Assembly: GCF_009687845.1 (NCBI RefSeq) | Contig: NZ_BLAD01000053.1 | Coordinates: 34,926-98,925 of the forward strand | Source: Acrocarpospora corrugata | Lineage (GTDB): Bacteria > Actinomycetota > Actinomycetes > Streptosporangiales > Streptosporangiaceae | Length of the DNA stretch: 64,000 nt | Reading direction: 5' to 3' | Part shown: positions 42,472 through 50,735 of the stretch, piece by piece | Layout: each line of letters opens with the position of its first letter | Position numbering within the stretch: position 1 is the first letter of the stretch | Program-made: the position numbers and the translations under genes | The notes under the pieces: model-generated | The model's input: the letters and a program-made list of their open reading frames with translations, nothing else | The model's database searches: none | What the model was told of the DNA's origin: nothing

Positions 42472-43170
42472 GTGAGCGCAAGCCGTACCGCACGGGAACG
42501 TGTCAGAGCCGAACTGGTCCGAGAGATCACCGATATCGCCCGGAGGCATCTGGCCAGCGACGGGGCGAGTGGGTTGTCGCTGCGCGCGATCGCCCGCGAG
42601 ATGGGCATGGTCTCCTCCGCCATTCACCGATATTTCGCGACGAAGGATGACCTGCTTACGGCGCTGATCGTGGACGGGTACAACGCCTCGGGCGCGGCCG
42701 TCGAAGCCGCCGACGCCGCCTGCTCGCCCGCCGATTTCACCGGCCGCTGGCTCGCGGTCAGCCACGCGCTCCGCGACTGGGCGCTCGCCCAGCCGCACGA
42801 ATACGCCCTGATCCACGGCTCCCCCGTCCCCGGCTACCGCGCCCCCCAGGACACGATCGCCCCAGCAGCCCGGACCACCATCGTCTACGGCCGCATCATC
42901 GCCGAAGCCCACAGCGCCGGCCGCCTCACGCCGCCGGACATCGGCCTCACGGTCCCCGCCATCCTCAGCACGGACGCCCAGGCCGTCCGCTCCGTGATGC
43001 CCGGCGTCTCCGACGACGTGGTCGCCCGCGCCATCACCGCCTGGACCGGCCTGTACGGAATGATCAACTTTGAACTCTTCGGCCAGTTCCACAACGTGAT
43101 CAACCACAGAGCCGAGTTCTTCGACCACAACTCGCGCATCCTGGGCCGCCTCCTGGGCCTCCCCGGCTAG
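42472..43170 (+). CDS. TetR-family regulator
   Basis: 232 aa. The HTH is ITDIARRHLASDGASGLSLRAIAREMGMVSSAIHRYFATKDDLLTALI; the C-terminal ligand domain (TetR_C_13/33 type) ends KILGRLLG-like (SRILGRLLGLPG). It probably represses the divergent SRPBCC-epimerase-oxidoreductase operon through the GAGCA/TGCTC palindromes. The GTG at 42472 lies exactly 7 nt after TATGGT and is probably leaderless. The stop overlaps the convergent CDF gene. Confidence 0.92.
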   Translation: MSASRTARERVRAELVREITDIARRHLASDGASGLSLRAIAREMGMVSSAIHRYFATKDDLLTALIVDGYNASGAAVEAADAACSPADFTGRWLAVSHALRDWALAQPHEYALIHGSPVPGYRAPQDTIAPAARTTIVYGRIIAEAHSAGRLTPPDIGLTVPAILSTDAQAVRSVMPGVSDDVVARAITAWTGLYGMINFELFGQFHNVINHRAEFFDHNSRILGRLLGLPG

Positions 43171-44135
43171 TCACGCTCCGCCGTGGTCCGGTGCGAAGGG
43201 CCGTGCGGGTCTGCGCAGTGGGCCGTGGTCGCGCCGATGGTCAGGAGTTCGCCGGGGGCGTGGTCGACCTGGAGGGTGGTGTGCTCGATGCCGTACTGGT
43301 CGTGCACGAGCTGTTCGGCGAGGACGCGGACCGCGTGGCAGTCGGCGCCGGGTTCGACCAGGATGTGGGCCGACATGGCGGCGTAGCCGGAGGTGACCTC
43401 CCAGATGTGCAGGTCGTGCACCTCCACGACGCGCTCCAGCGCCGCGGTCCTGGTGCCGATCTCGGTGGGGTTCATGCCGACGGGAGCGGCTTCCATGAAG
43501 ACCCGGCCCGCGTCGCGGACCAGGCCCCAGCCGGCTTTGAGCATGAGCGCGGCCACCACGAGGGCGGCGATGGCGTCGGCGCGCCCCCACCCGGTCAGCC
43601 ACACCACAGCTCCGGCGACGGTGGTGGCGATGAAGGCGAACAGGTCGTTGAGGATGTGCTGGTAGGCGCCCTCGACGTTGAGGCTGGCCCGGTTGGCGCG
43701 GGACATCAGCCAGGTGGCCGCCAGGTTCACCGCGATCCCGGCCAGTCCGGTCACGACCACGTAGAGCCCCTCCACCTGCGGGGGCTCCACCAGCCTGCGG
43801 ACGCCTTCGACGATGAAGTACACGCTCAGCAGCAGCAGCGTGATGCCGTTGATCTGGGCGGAGATGATCTCGGCACGCTTGAGGCCGTAGGTGAAACCGC
43901 CCTGCGGGGGGCGCGCCGAGATGCGCATCGCGATCAGTGCGAAGACGATCGCGATGGCGTCGGTGAGCATGTGCCCGGCGTCGGAGATCAGCGCTAGGGA
44001 CTGCGCGGCGAACCCGACGACGACCTCGGCCGCCATGAACCCGACGATCAGCGCGAGCGCGCCCTTCAGGTAGCGGCGGTCGGCCTCCTGGGTGACCCCG
44101 TGACCGCGCCCATGGCCGTGCCCGTGGTCAGACAT
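43167..44135 (-). CDS. Cation diffusion facilitator (zinc exporter type)
   Basis: 322 aa with six TM helices. The N-terminus is His-rich (SDHGHGHGRGHG). The transport site is read from HxxxD in helix 2 (ISDAGHMLTDAIA) and HxxxD in helix 5 (HILNDLFAFIATT). A cytoplasmic domain follows with VHDLHIWEVTSGYAAMSAHI. HxxxD in both helices fits Zn2+/Co2+ exporters of the CzcD/ZitB group. The ATG at 44135 lies inside the last codons of the ArsR gene, 8-bp overlap, so export is coupled to the sensor. Confidence 0.93.
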   Translation of the reverse strand: MSDHGHGHGRGHGVTQEADRRYLKGALALIVGFMAAEVVVGFAAQSLALISDAGHMLTDAIAIVFALIAMRISARPPQGGFTYGLKRAEIISAQINGITLLLLSVYFIVEGVRRLVEPPQVEGLYVVVTGLAGIAVNLAATWLMSRANRASLNVEGAYQHILNDLFAFIATTVAGAVVWLTGWGRADAIAALVVAALMLKAGWGLVRDAGRVFMEAAPVGMNPTEIGTRTAALERVVEVHDLHIWEVTSGYAAMSAHILVEPGADCHAVRVLAEQLVHDQYGIEHTTLQVDHAPGELLTIGATTAHCADPHGPSHRTTAERD

Positions 44136-44532
44136 CGTTTCGCTCCTCGTCATGGCCGATGTGCGTGATCGCAAGATCGAACAGCATCCTGACGTGCGAG
44201 TCGGCCAGCTGGTAGTAGGCCATCCGCCCGGACCTGCGGACCTTCACCACCCGGTGGGTCCGCAGCAGGCGCAACGCGTGCGAGGCCGCCGACATGCTCT
44301 GCCCCGTGGCCGCGGCCAGGTCGCAGACGCACATCTCGCCGCCCTCCAGCAACGCCGCCATCAGGCGCAACCGGCCGGGATCGGCCAGCAGCGAGAAAAC
44401 GTCGGCGAGATCCTGCACGACCTCCTCGGACGGCAGCGCCCGCCGGACGGACTTCACCCGCTCCGCGTCCACCACCGGCGTCGGGCAGGCATCAGGGGAC
44501 AGCGCCACTACAACACTTGAATCATTGTTCAT
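44128..44532 (-). CDS. ArsR/SmtB-family metal-responsive repressor (zinc type)
   Basis: 134 aa. Winged helix: LADVFSLLADPGRLRLMAALLEGGEMCVCDLAAATGQSMSAASHALRLLRTHRVVKVRRSGRMAYYQLAD. The last helix is DSHVRMLFDLAITHIGHD, with Asp, His+2, His+13 and His+16, the exact spacing of the alpha-5 zinc site of CzrA/SmtB. A CVC pair in the alpha-3 region (EMCVCDL) could form a second site. The ATG at 44532 lies within a TGAA-N6-TTCA operator-like repeat, so it should repress itself and the exporter until zinc rises. Confidence 0.93.
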   Translation of the reverse strand: MNNDSSVVVALSPDACPTPVVDAERVKSVRRALPSEEVVQDLADVFSLLADPGRLRLMAALLEGGEMCVCDLAAATGQSMSAASHALRLLRTHRVVKVRRSGRMAYYQLADSHVRMLFDLAITHIGHDEERNDV

Positions 44533-44535
44533 ACG
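44515..44535. promoter_or_regulatory. ArsR operator-like repeat 1 (overlaps the arsR start)
   Basis: The core TGAATCATTGTTCA (44518-44531) has TGAA/TTCA arms as in SmtB-type operators. The surrounding 21 bp matches a second copy at 44584-44604. Confidence 0.6.
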
Positions 44536-44583
44536 TCGAGTCTGAGGGCGCCGCCGAGCCCTGTCAACAACTCCCATTCGCAG

Positions 44584-44604
44584 ACTTGAACACTTGCTCA
44601 TACG
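44584..44604. promoter_or_regulatory. ArsR operator-like repeat 2 (toward the ZIP gene)
   Basis: The core TGAACACTTGCTCA lies in the same ACTT...ATACG context as repeat 1. It is placed between the arsR promoter region and the ZIP gene start at 44684, so one repressor could control both directions. Confidence 0.6.
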
Positions 44605-44683: not shown

Positions 44684-45850
44684 ATGACCTTCGATGGACG
44701 ATCTCCTGATGTGGCGGTCTGGCTGGCCGTCGCCCTGATCACCCTGTCCACCCTGGTCGGAGCCTGGCTGGCCCGGCGCAAATCCCGGCAGGTCACCGCC
44801 TTGCTGGCGGTCGCCTCCGCGCTGATGCTGGTCACCGCGTTGATCGACATGCTCCCTGACGCCTGGGAGGGGGCCGCCGAGAACGGCCTGCCGGTGTGGA
44901 TGCTCGGCCTGGCCATCCTGTTCGGCTTCCTGGTGATCACCTATTTCACCCGGCGGGGCTGCGGGCACGACCACGAGAGCGGCAGACCGGCCGGTGGCGT
45001 GCACCTGCCCGGCGCGCATCGCCGCGTCAGGGAGATGCTGAGCGCCGCCGTCTTCGGCGGCATGGGTACGGCTGCCGCCCTCTCCATGCACCGCGCGGTC
45101 GAGGGCGCGACCCTGGCGTTGACGGCGTCCGCGGTCGTGGTGCTCGCCCTCGTCGTCCACTCGACCAGTGAGGGGCTCGCGTTGACCGCCCTGCTCGACA
45201 TGGCGAAACGGCGGCTGGCGCCGTGGCTGACGGTGTCCTGTGTCGCCCCGGCGGTGGGCGTCGTGATCGCCACGATCAGCCCGATCCCGCCGCAGGTGGA
45301 GCCGATTCTGATCGGGGTGGTGGCCGGAGTGCTGCTCCGTACCGCCGTGGTGGGCCTGAAGCTGGCGGCCAGCAGGCAGGAGGACGGGCGGCTGCCCCGG
45401 CGGCACCTGCTCAGCGCGGCCGGGCTCGCCGCGACCCTGGCCGTGGTCATCGCCGCCATGCACCTGATGCCCGAGGACCAGACGCAGGCGTCCCTCGACC
45501 GGGCGATGGCCACCATGCCCACACCGTCTCTCAGGCCGCCTCTCGCACCGTCTCCCGCGCCGCCGAGCTCCTCTCTCCCGCAGTTCGCGCCCCGGGACAG
45601 GGAGCATCTGCGCGCGGCCCTGACGGTGGGCCAGCTGAGCCTGGCCCAGGTGCTGGCCAGCACAGACAAGCTGACGCGCGGGACCTACATCGGGTGGCTC
45701 CTGCGGGGCCTGCCCGGCTACCGCCCGGCCGACGTCCGGCGTCTGCTGGCGGCCCGGAACATCAGCCCCACCGGCGCGGTGGGCGATCTCACCCCACGCC
45801 AGCGCGCCTACCTGCTGGAAGCCGTCTCCTCCGCCCGAAAGGCACGGTGA
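44684..45850 (+). CDS. ZIP-family-like membrane protein fused to an IHF/H2TH-like DNA-binding domain
   Basis: 388 aa. Residues 1-265 show about eight TM segments. Helix 4 carries HRAVEG and helix 5 HSTSEG, the paired HxxxE motifs of ZIP metal transporters; DMLPDAWE lies in helix 2 and a Cys/His loop (RRGCGHDHE) after helix 3. A Pro/Ser linker (about 280-302) leads to about 85 residues that match the pattern of actinobacterial integration host factor: LRAALTVGQLSLAQVL, YIGWLLRGLPGYRPADVRRL, and ISPTGAVGDLTPRQRAYLL. A transporter tied to a DNA-binding domain is unusual. The ATG has GAGGAAG upstream. Divergent from arsR-CDF; DivIVA gene 3 bp downstream. Confidence 0.75.
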   Translation: MTFDGRSPDVAVWLAVALITLSTLVGAWLARRKSRQVTALLAVASALMLVTALIDMLPDAWEGAAENGLPVWMLGLAILFGFLVITYFTRRGCGHDHESGRPAGGVHLPGAHRRVREMLSAAVFGGMGTAAALSMHRAVEGATLALTASAVVVLALVVHSTSEGLALTALLDMAKRRLAPWLTVSCVAPAVGVVIATISPIPPQVEPILIGVVAGVLLRTAVVGLKLAASRQEDGRLPRRHLLSAAGLAATLAVVIAAMHLMPEDQTQASLDRAMATMPTPSLRPPLAPSPAPPSSSLPQFAPRDREHLRAALTVGQLSLAQVLASTDKLTRGTYIGWLLRGLPGYRPADVRRLLAARNISPTGAVGDLTPRQRAYLLEAVSSARKAR

Positions 45851-45853
45851 ACC

Positions 45854-46282
45854 ATGGACCACCCGAACCTCTGCGACAAGGTGATGACAGCGGAGACCGT
45901 CCGCGCCAAGGTCTTCGCCACCGCCCGGCTGCGCCCGGGCTACGACCTCGCCGACGTGGACGTCTTCCTGAGCGAGGTGGAGACCAGCCTGCGCTGGCTC
46001 CACCAGGAGAACGCGCGACTGGCCGCCCTGGCGAACAACAGCGGCGGGCTGTCCCCCCGGACGGCTGCCCTGATGATCACACACGCCCAGGAGGAGGCCG
46101 CCGCGATCATCACCCAGGCCGAGACACGGGCGCGGGACCTCGTCGAGGAGGCGCGGGAGACCGCGCGGCACGCCGCCGAAATCCTCGGCGAGGCCCACGC
46201 CGCAGGCACCCGCGAACGCCGGCAGCTCGAAGAGCGTCTCGCCCAGCTCCAGAGCCTCATCGGCCGGCTGTCCGACGGTTAG
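45854..46282 (+). CDS. Small DivIVA-domain protein
   Basis: 142 aa. The N-terminal DivIVA motif is VRAKVFATARLRPGYDLADVDVFLSEVETSL. The middle and C-terminus are coiled coil with heptad-like runs (HAQEEAAAIITQAETRARDLVEEARETARHAAEILGEAH). DivIVA proteins sense curved membrane at poles and septa and organise wall growth or chromosome ends. The 3-bp spacing to the ZIP/H2TH gene makes co-translation almost certain and suggests a physical partnership (inference). Confidence 0.88.
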   Translation: MDHPNLCDKVMTAETVRAKVFATARLRPGYDLADVDVFLSEVETSLRWLHQENARLAALANNSGGLSPRTAALMITHAQEEAAAIITQAETRARDLVEEARETARHAAEILGEAHAAGTRERRQLEERLAQLQSLIGRLSDG

Positions 46283-46451: not shown

Positions 46452-49400
46452 TCAGTAGACGTCGCGGACGTATCTTCTGGTCGCCGCGAGTTGCTTGACG
46501 TATGCGGCGGCGTTGTCGGTGGAGAGGTCGCCGTGGGTGGCGACGATCTCGCGGAGGGTGTGGTCGACGTCCTTGGCCATCCGGGTGGCGTCGCCGCAGA
46601 CGTAGAGGTGCGCGCCGTCCTCCAGCCAGGACCAGAGCTGGGCGCCCTTCTCGCGCATGCGGTCCTGGACATAGATCTTGGTGCGCTGGTCGCGGGAGAA
46701 GGCCAGGTCGAGGCGGGTGAGGAAGCCGTCCGCGTGCAGGGCGGTCAGGTCCTCCTCGAAGTAGAAGTCGGTGGCCCGGCGCTGTTCGCCGAAGAAGAGC
46801 CAGTTGGGGCCCTGGTGGCCGAGGGCGCGGCGTTCGTCGAGGAAGCCGAGGAAGGGGGCGAGGCCGGTGCCGGGACCGATCATCACCATGGGGGTGGCGG
46901 GGTCGGCTGGGGGGCGGAAGTAGGTGGTGGGCTGGACGTACAGGGGGATGGGGGTTTGCTGAGCCTGGGTGAGGTAGGCGGAGCAGACGCCCTGGCGGGC
47001 GGTGCCCTTGGGGTTGTCGAAGCGGATGACCGAGACCATCAGCCGGATTTCGTCCGGGTCGGCGAGCGGGCTGGAGGCGATCGAGTACTGGCGTGGCTGG
47101 AGCCGCTTGAGGAGCTTCACCCACTCCTCGGGGGTGGCCCGGACGGCCAGGTCGGCGATGACGTCGACGGCTTGGCGGCCCCAGGTCCATTTGGCGAGTT
47201 CGCCTTCGTTGCCGGGTCTGAGAGCTTTGACGAGGTCGCGGTCCTGGGTGCGTTCCGCGGCGAACCTGAGCAGATCGGGTATGATCTTGGTGATGTCGAG
47301 GTGCCGTGTCAGCGCTTCGCCCAGGGAGATCTGCCCCGCGTCGGGCAGCTCGACCGTGGCGTCGGCACGCAGGCGAGCCACCTTGAGCCACTCCGCGACG
47401 AGCGCCTCGTCGTTGACGGGGATCACGACCAGGGCGTCTCCCGCCCGGTACGGCAGCCGCCCCTCGGTGCCGAACACGAACTGCCGGACTTCCTTGGCCG
47501 ATCCCGGGCGGCTGAGCAGGCGGTTGCCCACCAGCGGCGCGTAGAAGGGTGATTTGCGGCTCGGTGCGGGGGTCAACGGCCGGGCGAGTGCCGTGATCAT
47601 GCCATCCAGCCAGTTGTGTGCCCGCTCCTCATCGCCCGGCTCGCAGTCCACCCTGGGCGCGAGCCGCTCCGCGCCGAGTTCCCCCAGGCGCTGGTCCAGC
47701 CGGCGGCCGTGCCCGCAGAACGCCTCGTAACTGGAATCACCGAAGGCCAGCACCGCGAACCGGATCCCGTCGAGGCGGGCGGCGTCCGGCCGGGCCAGCT
47801 CCTCCCAGAACCCGGTGCCGTTGTCGGGGGGTTCGCCGTCGCCGAACGTACTGGAGATCACCAGCACATCGGCGTCCCGGGGCAGCCCGGCGGCCTGATC
47901 CATACCGACCAGCCGGGCCGCCCGCCCTGACTCGGCCAGCCGCTGGGCGCTCGCGGCGGCGAACTCCTCCGCGTTGCCCGTCTGGGATGCCCAGAGAACG
48001 ACGACCTCACGGACAGACGACTGCACGGCAGCCGTGTCGCGAGACGCCTGCATAGGAGCCGTGTCGCGAGGCGCCTGCTCAGAAGCTGTGTCGCGCGAGG
48101 GCTGCGCGAGGGCAATGTCGCCATACGGCTCCACGGAAGCCGCCTCGCGGGAGAACACGCCTGCCAGAACGCCGTTGATCCACAGTGCGTGGCCCGGGTC
48201 GATTGGCGCGTGCTCCGGCAGGATCGGCGTCCCCGCTCCCCCGGTCTGCGCCAGCCCGGTCAGGAACCCGGAGAGGTAGCGCCGCTCTTTGTCGGAGAGC
48301 GGCGGCGGGGCTGAATCAGGGATCCCGAAAAGGTCCGCGAGGACAGCGACCTCGCGACCGACCTGCCTCGGAGCGAAGTCCGAAGCAGGTACCTCGGAAG
48401 AGGCCTGCTTCCGAACCTTGTCGGCGTGGACCGGTGCCCCCACCGCGGCGCTCTCGGCAGGAACCTGGGTGCGCTGCGCGACATCGCCGGCGTAGAGATC
48501 AGGGACGCTCTCGACGGAGGCATCCGAGCGTCTCGCCGCATCGTCGGCAGAGGGATCGGTGCGCTTCGGGGCGTGTTCGGCGGGGACCTTGGTCAGGGAG
48601 ACCGCGCAGACCTTCAGTTCTGGCTGGAAGGAGATGGGGTCGACCGCGTCGTTGGTGACGGCGTTGACGCTGAGGTACTCGCCGAACAGGTCGTTCCAGT
48701 GGAACGGCGCGAAGCAGGTGCCGGGGAGGACCCGGTCGGTCAGGACGGCGGGGAGTACTGCTCGGCCGCGCCGTGACTCCACCGCGACCAGGTCGCCTTC
48801 GGCGATGTCGCCGGCGTCGGCAGGGTTGATTTCGACGAAGGGGCCAGGGTTGAGCTTGTTCAGTTTGGCGATCTTTCCGGTCTTGGTCAGGGTGTGCCAC
48901 TGGTGCTGCAACCGGCCGGTGTTGAGGACGAACGGGTAGGAGTCGTCGGGGAGTTCGGCGGCGGGCAGATGTGGCCGGGGGAAGAAGACCGCGCGACCGC
49001 TTACTGTGGCGAAGGCCAGACGGGGGCGCTCCCCGTCGGGCCGGGTCAGCAGCGCCTGGCTGCCGCCGTCGTTGCGGTAGCGGACGGGATTGCGTCTCTC
49101 GCCGCCAGGAAGGCTCGGCCACTGCACGGGCGACTCCCGGAGCCGGGCGTACGTCACTCCGCGCACGTCGTAGCCCGTTTTCGGGTTCCACGCCTGCTTG
49201 ATCTCCTCGAAGATCTCTTCGGCGTCGCGGTAGGTGAAGGCGTCGGCGAAACCCATCTCGCACGCGACCCTGGCGATGAGCTGCCAGTCCGGCAACGCCT
49301 GCCCCGGCGGATCGACGGCCTGCCGCAGCAGCGTCAGATTCCGCTCCGAGTTGATCATCACGCCTTCCGTCTCCGCCCACAACGCCCCCGGCAGGACCAC

Positions 49401-50735
49401 ATCCGCGTAGGCGTTAGTCTCGGTGGCGGCGAAGACGTCCTGGGTGACGACGAACTCGGCCGCCTCCAGCCCGGCGATCACGGTCTTGCGGTTGCCGACG
49501 CTGGCGACCGGGTTCGTACAGATGATCCAGCAGGCTTTGATCCCGCCCTCGGCCATCCGCTCGAACATCTCGACCGTGCCCCGCCCGACCTCCGTACGCA
49601 GCGTCCCGGACGGCAGCCGCCACAGCTCCTCGACGAAACGCCGGTCCTCCGCCACCAGCACCGACCGCTGACCGGGCAGGCCAGGACCCATGTAGCCCAT
49701 CTCCCGGCCGCCCATCGCGTTGGGCTGCCCGGTGAGCGAGAAGGGACCACTCCCGGTGCGGCAGATCGCGCCGGTCGCCAGATGCAGATTGCACAGCGCG
49801 TTGGTGTTCCAGGTGCCGTGGGTGCTCTGGTTGAGGCCCATCGTCCAGCAGCTCATCCACTCCCCGGCCGCGCCGATCCAGTCGGCGGCCCGGCGCAGGT
49901 CGTCCTCGGGGATCCCGGTGACGGCGGCGACCGTCGCGGGCGGGTAGTCGCGCAGGAACTCCGGCATCGCCTCCCAGCCCTCGGTGTGCTCGGCGATGAA
50001 GTCCCTGTCGATATGACCGTTCTCGACCAGCAGGTGCAGCAGGCCGTTCAGCAGGGCGAGATCCGTACCGGGCCTGATCTGCAGGAACAGGTCGGCTTTC
50101 GCGGCGGTGGCAGTGCGCCGGGGATCCACCACGATGAGCTTCGCGCCCGCCTTGACCCGGTCCAGCAGGCGCAGGAACAGGATGGGATGGCAGTCGGCCA
50201 TGTTCGCGCCGATGACGAAGAACAGGTCCGCGTGGTCGAAGTCGTCGTAGGAGCCCGGCGGCCCGTCCGACCCGAGCGACAGCTTGTAGCCGCTGCCCGC
50301 GCTGGCCATGCACAGCCGCGAGTTCGACTCGATCTGGTTCGTCCCGACGAAGCCCTTGGCCAGTTTGTTCGCCAGATACTGGGCTTCCAGCGTCATCTGA
50401 CCGGACACGTAGAAGGACAGCGCGTCGGGCCCGTGCTCGTCCAGGATCGCCCGCAGCCGCCGAGCCGTCTCCTTGATCGCCTCGTCCACGCCGACTTCGG
50501 CCGGCTCCGCGCCCCGATCGGCGCGCACCAGCGCCGCACCGAGCCGCCCCGGCGCGGCGGCCATGTCGGCGCTGGTCGCGCCCTTGGTGCAGAGCCGCCC
50601 CGCGTTCGCCGGATGGGCGCGATCGCCGGACACCTTCACCACGCGGCGGCGGCCGGCGGCGTCGGTGTCGACGTCCATGACGATGCCGCAGCCGACGCCG
50701 CAGTAGGAGCAGACGGTCCTGACGGGAACGGTCAA
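46452..50735 (-). CDS. Fused assimilatory nitrate reductase / sulfite-reductase-type flavoprotein
   Basis: 1427 aa. A 4Fe-4S site at the N-terminus (CSYCGVGCG ... GRLCTKG), molybdopterin oxidoreductase body (about 60-480) and dinucleotide-binding domain (about 590-720). After a long low-complexity linker with 9-residue repeats comes a flavodoxin domain ([16 protein letters not shown], near 905), then the FAD/NADPH reductase ([10 protein letters not shown] near 1212; [15 protein letters not shown] near 1285). The fusion should carry electrons from NADPH through FAD and FMN to the Mo centre, making nitrate reduction self-contained. The TTG start has GGAGAAC upstream. PadR gene divergently placed beyond 120 bp. 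Confidence 0.9.
48031..48147 (-). repeat. 27-bp in-frame tandem repeats in the reductase linker
   Basis: Units of 27 bp start at 48031, 48058, 48085 and, diverged, 48112 and 48139. Read on the coding strand they give 9-residue repeats such as RDTASEQAP and RDTAPMQAS. Repeat number may vary between strains because the units are nearly identical. Confidence 0.75.

Follow-up and report, generated by a model that had tools for sequence, protein, structure and literature searches.

The gene at 44684-45850 (+ strand, ATG start) raises the question of why a metal transporter should end in a domain related to a nucleoid protein, and of what that domain does there. The gene lies in a 64,000-nucleotide stretch of DNA from the soil actinomycete Acrocarpospora corrugata, here called the window, and encodes a ZIP-IHF fusion protein of 388 aa, as seen from ORF reading, profiles, an AlphaFold2 model and Foldseek comparisons.

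A ZIP transporter domain with eight transmembrane helices

Residues 8-261 (44705-45466, +) form a ZIP transporter domain with eight transmembrane (TM) helices, recognised from profiles, loop charges, AlphaFold2 and a Foldseek comparison with BbZIP. The NCBIfam ZupT profile (NF003243) matches the protein with E=2.8e-7 and Pfam Zip (PF02535) with E=2.4e-8, the latter score (34.0 bits) falling narrowly below the curated cut-off of 35.1. Eight long helices are seen in the AlphaFold2 model (8-32, 34-66, 71-92, 111-141, 146-173, 179-198, 206-231 and 239-261), followed by a low-confidence linker and then by a C-terminal domain with pLDDT 91-97; the ZIP part of the model is of moderate confidence (10-residue blocks mostly at pLDDT 50-86, pTM 0.43). 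The metal motifs are located in TM4 (residues 136-141, HRAVEG) and TM5 (residues 159-164, HSTSEG), and H136, R137, E140, H159, S160 and E163, including the H-x3-E-G pair, are unchanged in 26/26 aligned homologues. Profile matches, helix number and motif positions are those of the ZIP family (SLC39/PF02535). The preliminary description of this locus, which reported a ZIP with eight hydrophobic segments carrying HRAVEG and HSTSEG, is borne out by PF02535, the modelled helices and the fold match with BbZIP.

Both metal sites of a binuclear centre are present in some ZIPs only, and absence of M2 is no bar to membership. The M1+M2 arrangement is not found in the window's protein: an M1-type set is kept, and the M2 ligands are replaced (R137, S160). 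The fold is held in common with BbZIP of Bordetella bronchiseptica (GufA-type; PDB 5TSA/5TSB/7Z6M/8CZJ; Foldseek prob 1.0, 8 core TM), in which the metal centre consists of M99, H177, N178, E181, Q207, D208, E211 and E240 (PMC9873690). Equivalents of H177, E181 and E211 are retained as H136, E140 and E163, whereas Q207 is replaced by His (H159), N178 and D208 of the M2 site are changed to R137 and S160, and E240 probably corresponds to S/A188 in the ZIP-IHF family, a position taken from alignment reading. Relative to BbZIP, the C-terminal linker and IHF domain are additions. The gene product is probably a ZIP-family divalent-metal transporter, with zinc as the likely substrate.

The C-terminal domain is an IHF homologue

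TM8 is followed by a fast-evolving Pro/Ser/Thr-rich linker without a hydrophobic segment (residues 262-300, 45467-45583, +), delimited by hydropathy, low pLDDT and dN/dS; a Pro/Ser linker had been noted here before, correctly. The remaining 88 residues (301-388, 45584-45847, +) form an IHF-fold (H2TH) domain, assigned from profiles, model, Foldseek and tree, and predicted to be extracytoplasmic. The NCBIfam profile for actinobacterial IHF (NF041260, actino_IHF) matches it with E=3.5e-7 and 30.7 bits, short of the equivalog cut-off of 60 bits, as expected for a paralogue. A single-sequence search of PDB found mIHF (6TOB) with E=9e-4, and a profile of 26 homologues matched mIHF with E=3.9e-9 and sIHF with E=2.7e-7. 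Thus, the IHF homology of the domain far exceeds chance. A Pfam search by itself gave no IHF domain in the C-terminal part, while the NCBIfam and PDB searches both did.

Modelled alone, the domain has a mean pLDDT of 88.8 and superposes on sIHF (6BEK/4ITQ) at 1.1-1.2 A with a query-normalised TM-score of 0.79-0.80 (Foldseek), so that the structural comparison proposed earlier comes out in favour of an IHF fold. The structural matches after sIHF are topoisomerase VI-B and ribosomal protein S13, expected H2TH relatives. Profile, predicted fold and tree agree, and the IHF-like domain of the preliminary description is confirmed: the ZIP carries a fused domain homologous to IHF/H2TH proteins. Fold and sequence are homologous to those of sIHF (SCO1480; 4ITQ, 6BEK) and mIHF (6TOB). 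These are free-standing nucleoid proteins of about 105 residues with an N-terminal helix, LPPLTPEQR, whereas the fused domain has neither the initial ~18 residues with this helix segment nor the arginines of the DNA loop, and its predicted location is extracytoplasmic.

The domain is predicted to face away from the cytoplasm

ZIP transporters have both termini on the non-cytosolic side (N-out/C-out, PMC7911073). Loop charges across the family agree with this: the mean number of K+R is 3.6, 6.4, 1.7 and 5.0 in the expected cytoplasmic loops, and 0.9, 0.5 and 0.4 in the N-terminus and outer loops. The metal motifs fix TM4 and TM5, and three helices remain before the C-terminus, which is thereby placed outside; no hydrophobic segment follows TM8, and the Pro/Ser/Thr linker is consistent with an extracytoplasmic tail. 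The order of the motifs, the charge distribution under the positive-inside rule and the match with BbZIP all indicate that the IHF-fold domain most likely lies outside the cell membrane, and so most likely never meets the chromosome. The same topology bears on the idea that the gene also yields a soluble IHF-like protein, either by translation from within the gene or by linker cleavage, the linker being both long and flexible in some members. A domain cleaved off would be released outside, and internal starts accompanied by a Shine-Dalgarno-like sequence are not conserved, candidates being present in 4/23 members only and at differing places, so that we regard a soluble product as very improbable.

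DNA binding by mIHF depends on arginines in its RRVRG loop. Taking as DNA-touching those IHF residues indicated by invariance rather than by a structure, positions R83, R84, R86, K67, R69 and K71 of IHF1 are 100% basic among the unfused IHF1 proteins from the same bacteria, but basic in only 39, 21, 0, 13, 30 and 30% of fused domains, respectively. The IHF1-invariant G87 is D/E in 21/23 fused domains, the hairpin has mostly lost its second glycine, and hairpin deletions are seen in several lineages (L085, L086, L095, L098 and L103). Neither the hairpin GVGK nor RRVRG, both invariant in free-standing IHF, is kept. The net charge of fused domains ranges from -2 to +18, with +9 for the window's own. 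On balance, the sequences argue against conserved DNA binding by the fused domain, less so for its more basic members, and suggest that this activity has been lost.

These observations bear on two explanations in which the domain binds nucleic acid. DivIVA-family proteins have been associated with the cell poles and with anchoring of the chromosome, and a DivIVA-type protein is encoded in the ZIP-IHF operon; together with the genuine IHF homology and the basic charge of the window's domain, this would fit a cytoplasmic IHF domain by which the transporter is tethered to the DNA of the chromosome, perhaps depending on metal. Such a tether is highly unlikely in view of the eight TM helices with an N-out/C-out charge pattern, the topology of the ZIP family (PMC7911073), the fact that hairpin and invariant basic residues have been lost, and the presence of relatives with charges as low as -2. 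The DNA binding at the membrane that had been suggested from the first inspection is not supported, given the predicted C-out topology and the loss of the invariant basic residues of IHF. An outside domain might alternatively still bind nucleic acid, for example extracellular DNA of the mycelial matrix, and deliver DNA-bound metal to the transporter. Retention of the IHF fold at 1.1-1.2 A, of R374 in 22/23 members and mostly of R306 and R341, and the very basic members (+16 and +18) are compatible with this; however, other members have a net charge of -2 or 0, the R-R-x-R loop is replaced by a conserved acidic residue, and hairpins are deleted, making extracellular DNA binding unlikely, if less so than the tether.

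Distribution and origin of the fusion

All five Acrocarpospora genomes examined encode two or three full-length ZIP-IHF copies each, and a genome search found the fusion in many other genera of Streptosporangiaceae, answering the earlier call for further ZIP-H2TH fusions. A sample of 395 genomes spread over the class gave no instance outside this family. The fusion is established computationally: as it is present as an open reading frame in many genomes, an annotation artefact or frameshift is ruled out. A normal free-standing IHF is encoded in the same genome. The remark in the preliminary description that no described transporter of this architecture is known stands for the part of the published work covered by a literature search, in which neither a ZIP-IHF transporter nor a DivIVA-ZIP report was found.

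In a tree of IHF1, a second free-standing group (IHF2) and the fused domains, the latter all fall to the same side of a branch supported at 97/94, although the short alignment means that this single fusion branch is not proof. Separate fusions in each lineage are not favoured, given this shared position. IHF2 is the free-standing group nearer to the fused domains, and the two-residue insertion of IHF1 is missing from both. IHF2 also resembles the fused domain in its R-D-D and K-K/R-x-K/R-V pattern, but differs in being free-standing and in retaining RR before the loop. IHF2 (L181-L191), with VGGLG in place of VRGLG, is widespread in Streptosporangiaceae and apparently absent from the window's genome. 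On the ZIP tree, copies without the domain are scattered and require ~5 changes, so that one gain and several losses is the simplest history. Thus, the simplest reading of the sequences is that the IHF-fold domain was acquired in a single event, from a paralogue of actinobacterial IHF, and then lost several times.

Some loci carry only parts of the fusion. L110 (G328:C16) consists of the linker and IHF domain alone, and L111 (G469:C36), beside ArsR and CDF genes, of TM8, linker and IHF domain; neither has an intact ZIP, and both are possible remnants. Shortened ZIP relatives without an IHF domain (~42-50% identity to the window's ZIP domain) are found at L076 (G000:C68) and L109 (G442:C2), the latter also lacking the His-containing TM3-TM4 loop.

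Purifying selection on the IHF-fold domain

The IHF-fold domain has dN/dS of 0.17-0.46 in most pairs, with exceptions of 0.73 and 0.58 in one pair each; values are 0.13-0.42 for the ZIP part and, apart from one pair at 0.06, 0.29-0.95 for the linker, which is generally above the domain. The fused IHF-fold domain is under purifying selection. Its rate of change is far above that of free-standing IHF1, a protein that hardly varies within the family. This fast evolution, the deletions and the several independent losses of the whole domain at working loci could indicate a functionless relic, a fused passenger in slow decay. However, the low dN/dS in most pairs, the absence of stop codons (0 in 26 full-length members) and the retention across genera of the core motif G..LSL..V...D......LL..LPG make a relic improbable.

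Linkage to a DivIVA-type protein and a metalloregulator

A 142 aa DivIVA-domain protein (PF05103) is encoded at 45854-46282 (+), starting 3 bases past the ZIP-IHF stop codon. The PF05103 match (E=2.7e-9) scores 37.5 bits against a cut-off of 28, and the N-terminal domain is followed by a coiled coil, as is typical of DivIVA. Computation shows the operon linkage to be recurrent: 27/33 intact ZIP loci (a set that excludes the shortened copy L109) have a DivIVA-like gene on the ZIP strand no more than 1.5 kb away, downstream of the ZIP in Acrocarpospora and one other genus, and upstream elsewhere. The whole genome contains only about five DivIVA-type genes (the search listed four, with the window's copy just under the limit). 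DivIVA-domain genes are also linked to ZIPs without an IHF domain. In many genera the DivIVA-type neighbour has a His-rich N-terminus (e.g. GHGHGHGHGH), and among the relatives at L075-L108 this is long in L077, L078, L081, L084 and L107; the window's own protein has little His-rich sequence. Where present, the His-rich N-terminus fits metal binding. At L095, L099 and L103, which have no DivIVA-like gene, a small His-rich ORF is instead found just upstream of the ZIP gene. These ORFs have ~50 residues, start with MTHxHH, end with DGCCAxE and are rich in His and Cys.

On the other side of the ZIP-IHF gene and on the opposite strand are an ArsR/SmtB-family metalloregulator (44128-44601, -; start codon uncertain) with an alpha-5 type motif (DSH-x10-HIGH) and CVCD, and a ZitB-like CDF cation exporter identified by profile (43167-44174, -). 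Both kinds of gene are found near the ZIP in the window and in many relatives, often divergently oriented. The regulator keeps D-x-H-x10-H-x2-H, which we take to resemble the motif of alpha-5 zinc sensors. Pattern search and orthologue comparison identify two ArsR-like operator boxes in the divergent promoter: TTGAATCATTGTTCA at 44517-44531 (+) and TTGAACACTTGCTCA at 44586-44600 (+), the second starting 98 bases before the ATG of ZIP-IHF. The pattern TTGAANNNTTGYTCA, composed after both boxes were seen, has these two copies in the promoter and 0 expected by chance in 64 kb, and orthologues have related boxes at matching places. Since the N-terminus predicted for ArsR overlaps with box 1, the true ArsR start is probably downstream of this box. 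Shared control with an exporter is more in keeping with metal excess than with starvation.

A proposed metal-stress module with an exported accessory domain

On balance it seems probable that the protein is a metal-stress ZIP with an exported and repurposed IHF-fold accessory domain, acting with a membrane scaffold. Metal excess would free ArsR, and the CDF exporter and the ZIP-IHF/DivIVA-type pair would be produced together. The DivIVA-type protein, with its N-domain on the membrane, would cluster the ZIP, and its His-rich tail, where present, would buffer metal on the cytoplasmic side. The IHF-fold domain, in the cell-wall space and without the basic surface of nucleoid IHF, would serve as an accessory domain on the outer face, aiding ZIP dimerisation, docking or regulation. 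It would be an optional part of a metal-stress module of zinc-type ArsR, CDF exporter, ZIP and DivIVA-type coiled coil. The proposed roles of domain and scaffold are drawn from anatomy and linkage, and two points weigh against this metal-stress reading: the charge of the domain (+9 in the window, up to +18), and the absence of the DivIVA-like gene at some ZIP loci. The more specific proposal that the IHF fold has been exapted as a working exported module of the transporter, forming with a metal-binding DivIVA-type scaffold a metal-trafficking complex peculiar to Streptosporangiaceae, is tentative.

Accessory domains are also known in LIV-1 ZIPs, where they are N-terminal, not IHF-like and unrelated to the domain described here. 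In human members such as ZIP4 the accessory domain is extracytoplasmic (PMC9727157), as predicted for ZIP-IHF. The DivIVA-type neighbour may be likened in function to PacL of Mycobacterium tuberculosis effluxosomes, small membrane-associated metal-binding proteins that gather P-type ATPases and whose genes accompany those of a transporter and a regulator of ArsR type (PMC13043812). PacL combines a TM segment with P-type ATPases, whereas the ZIP-IHF locus combines a DivIVA domain with a ZIP. The His-rich tails of the DivIVA-type proteins suggest that metal transport in actinobacteria is organised in membrane clusters by routes beyond PacL. If the metal-stress reading is correct, ZIP-IHF would be a conserved example of a fold for chromosome packing put to new use, as part of a transporter, on the outer face of the membrane, and an IHF/H2TH match alone would not imply DNA binding.

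Beyond the DivIVA-type gene, 46452-50735 (-) is occupied by a single ORF of 1427 residues, by appearance a molybdopterin nitrate reductase joined to a flavodoxin/FAD reductase (sequence reading).
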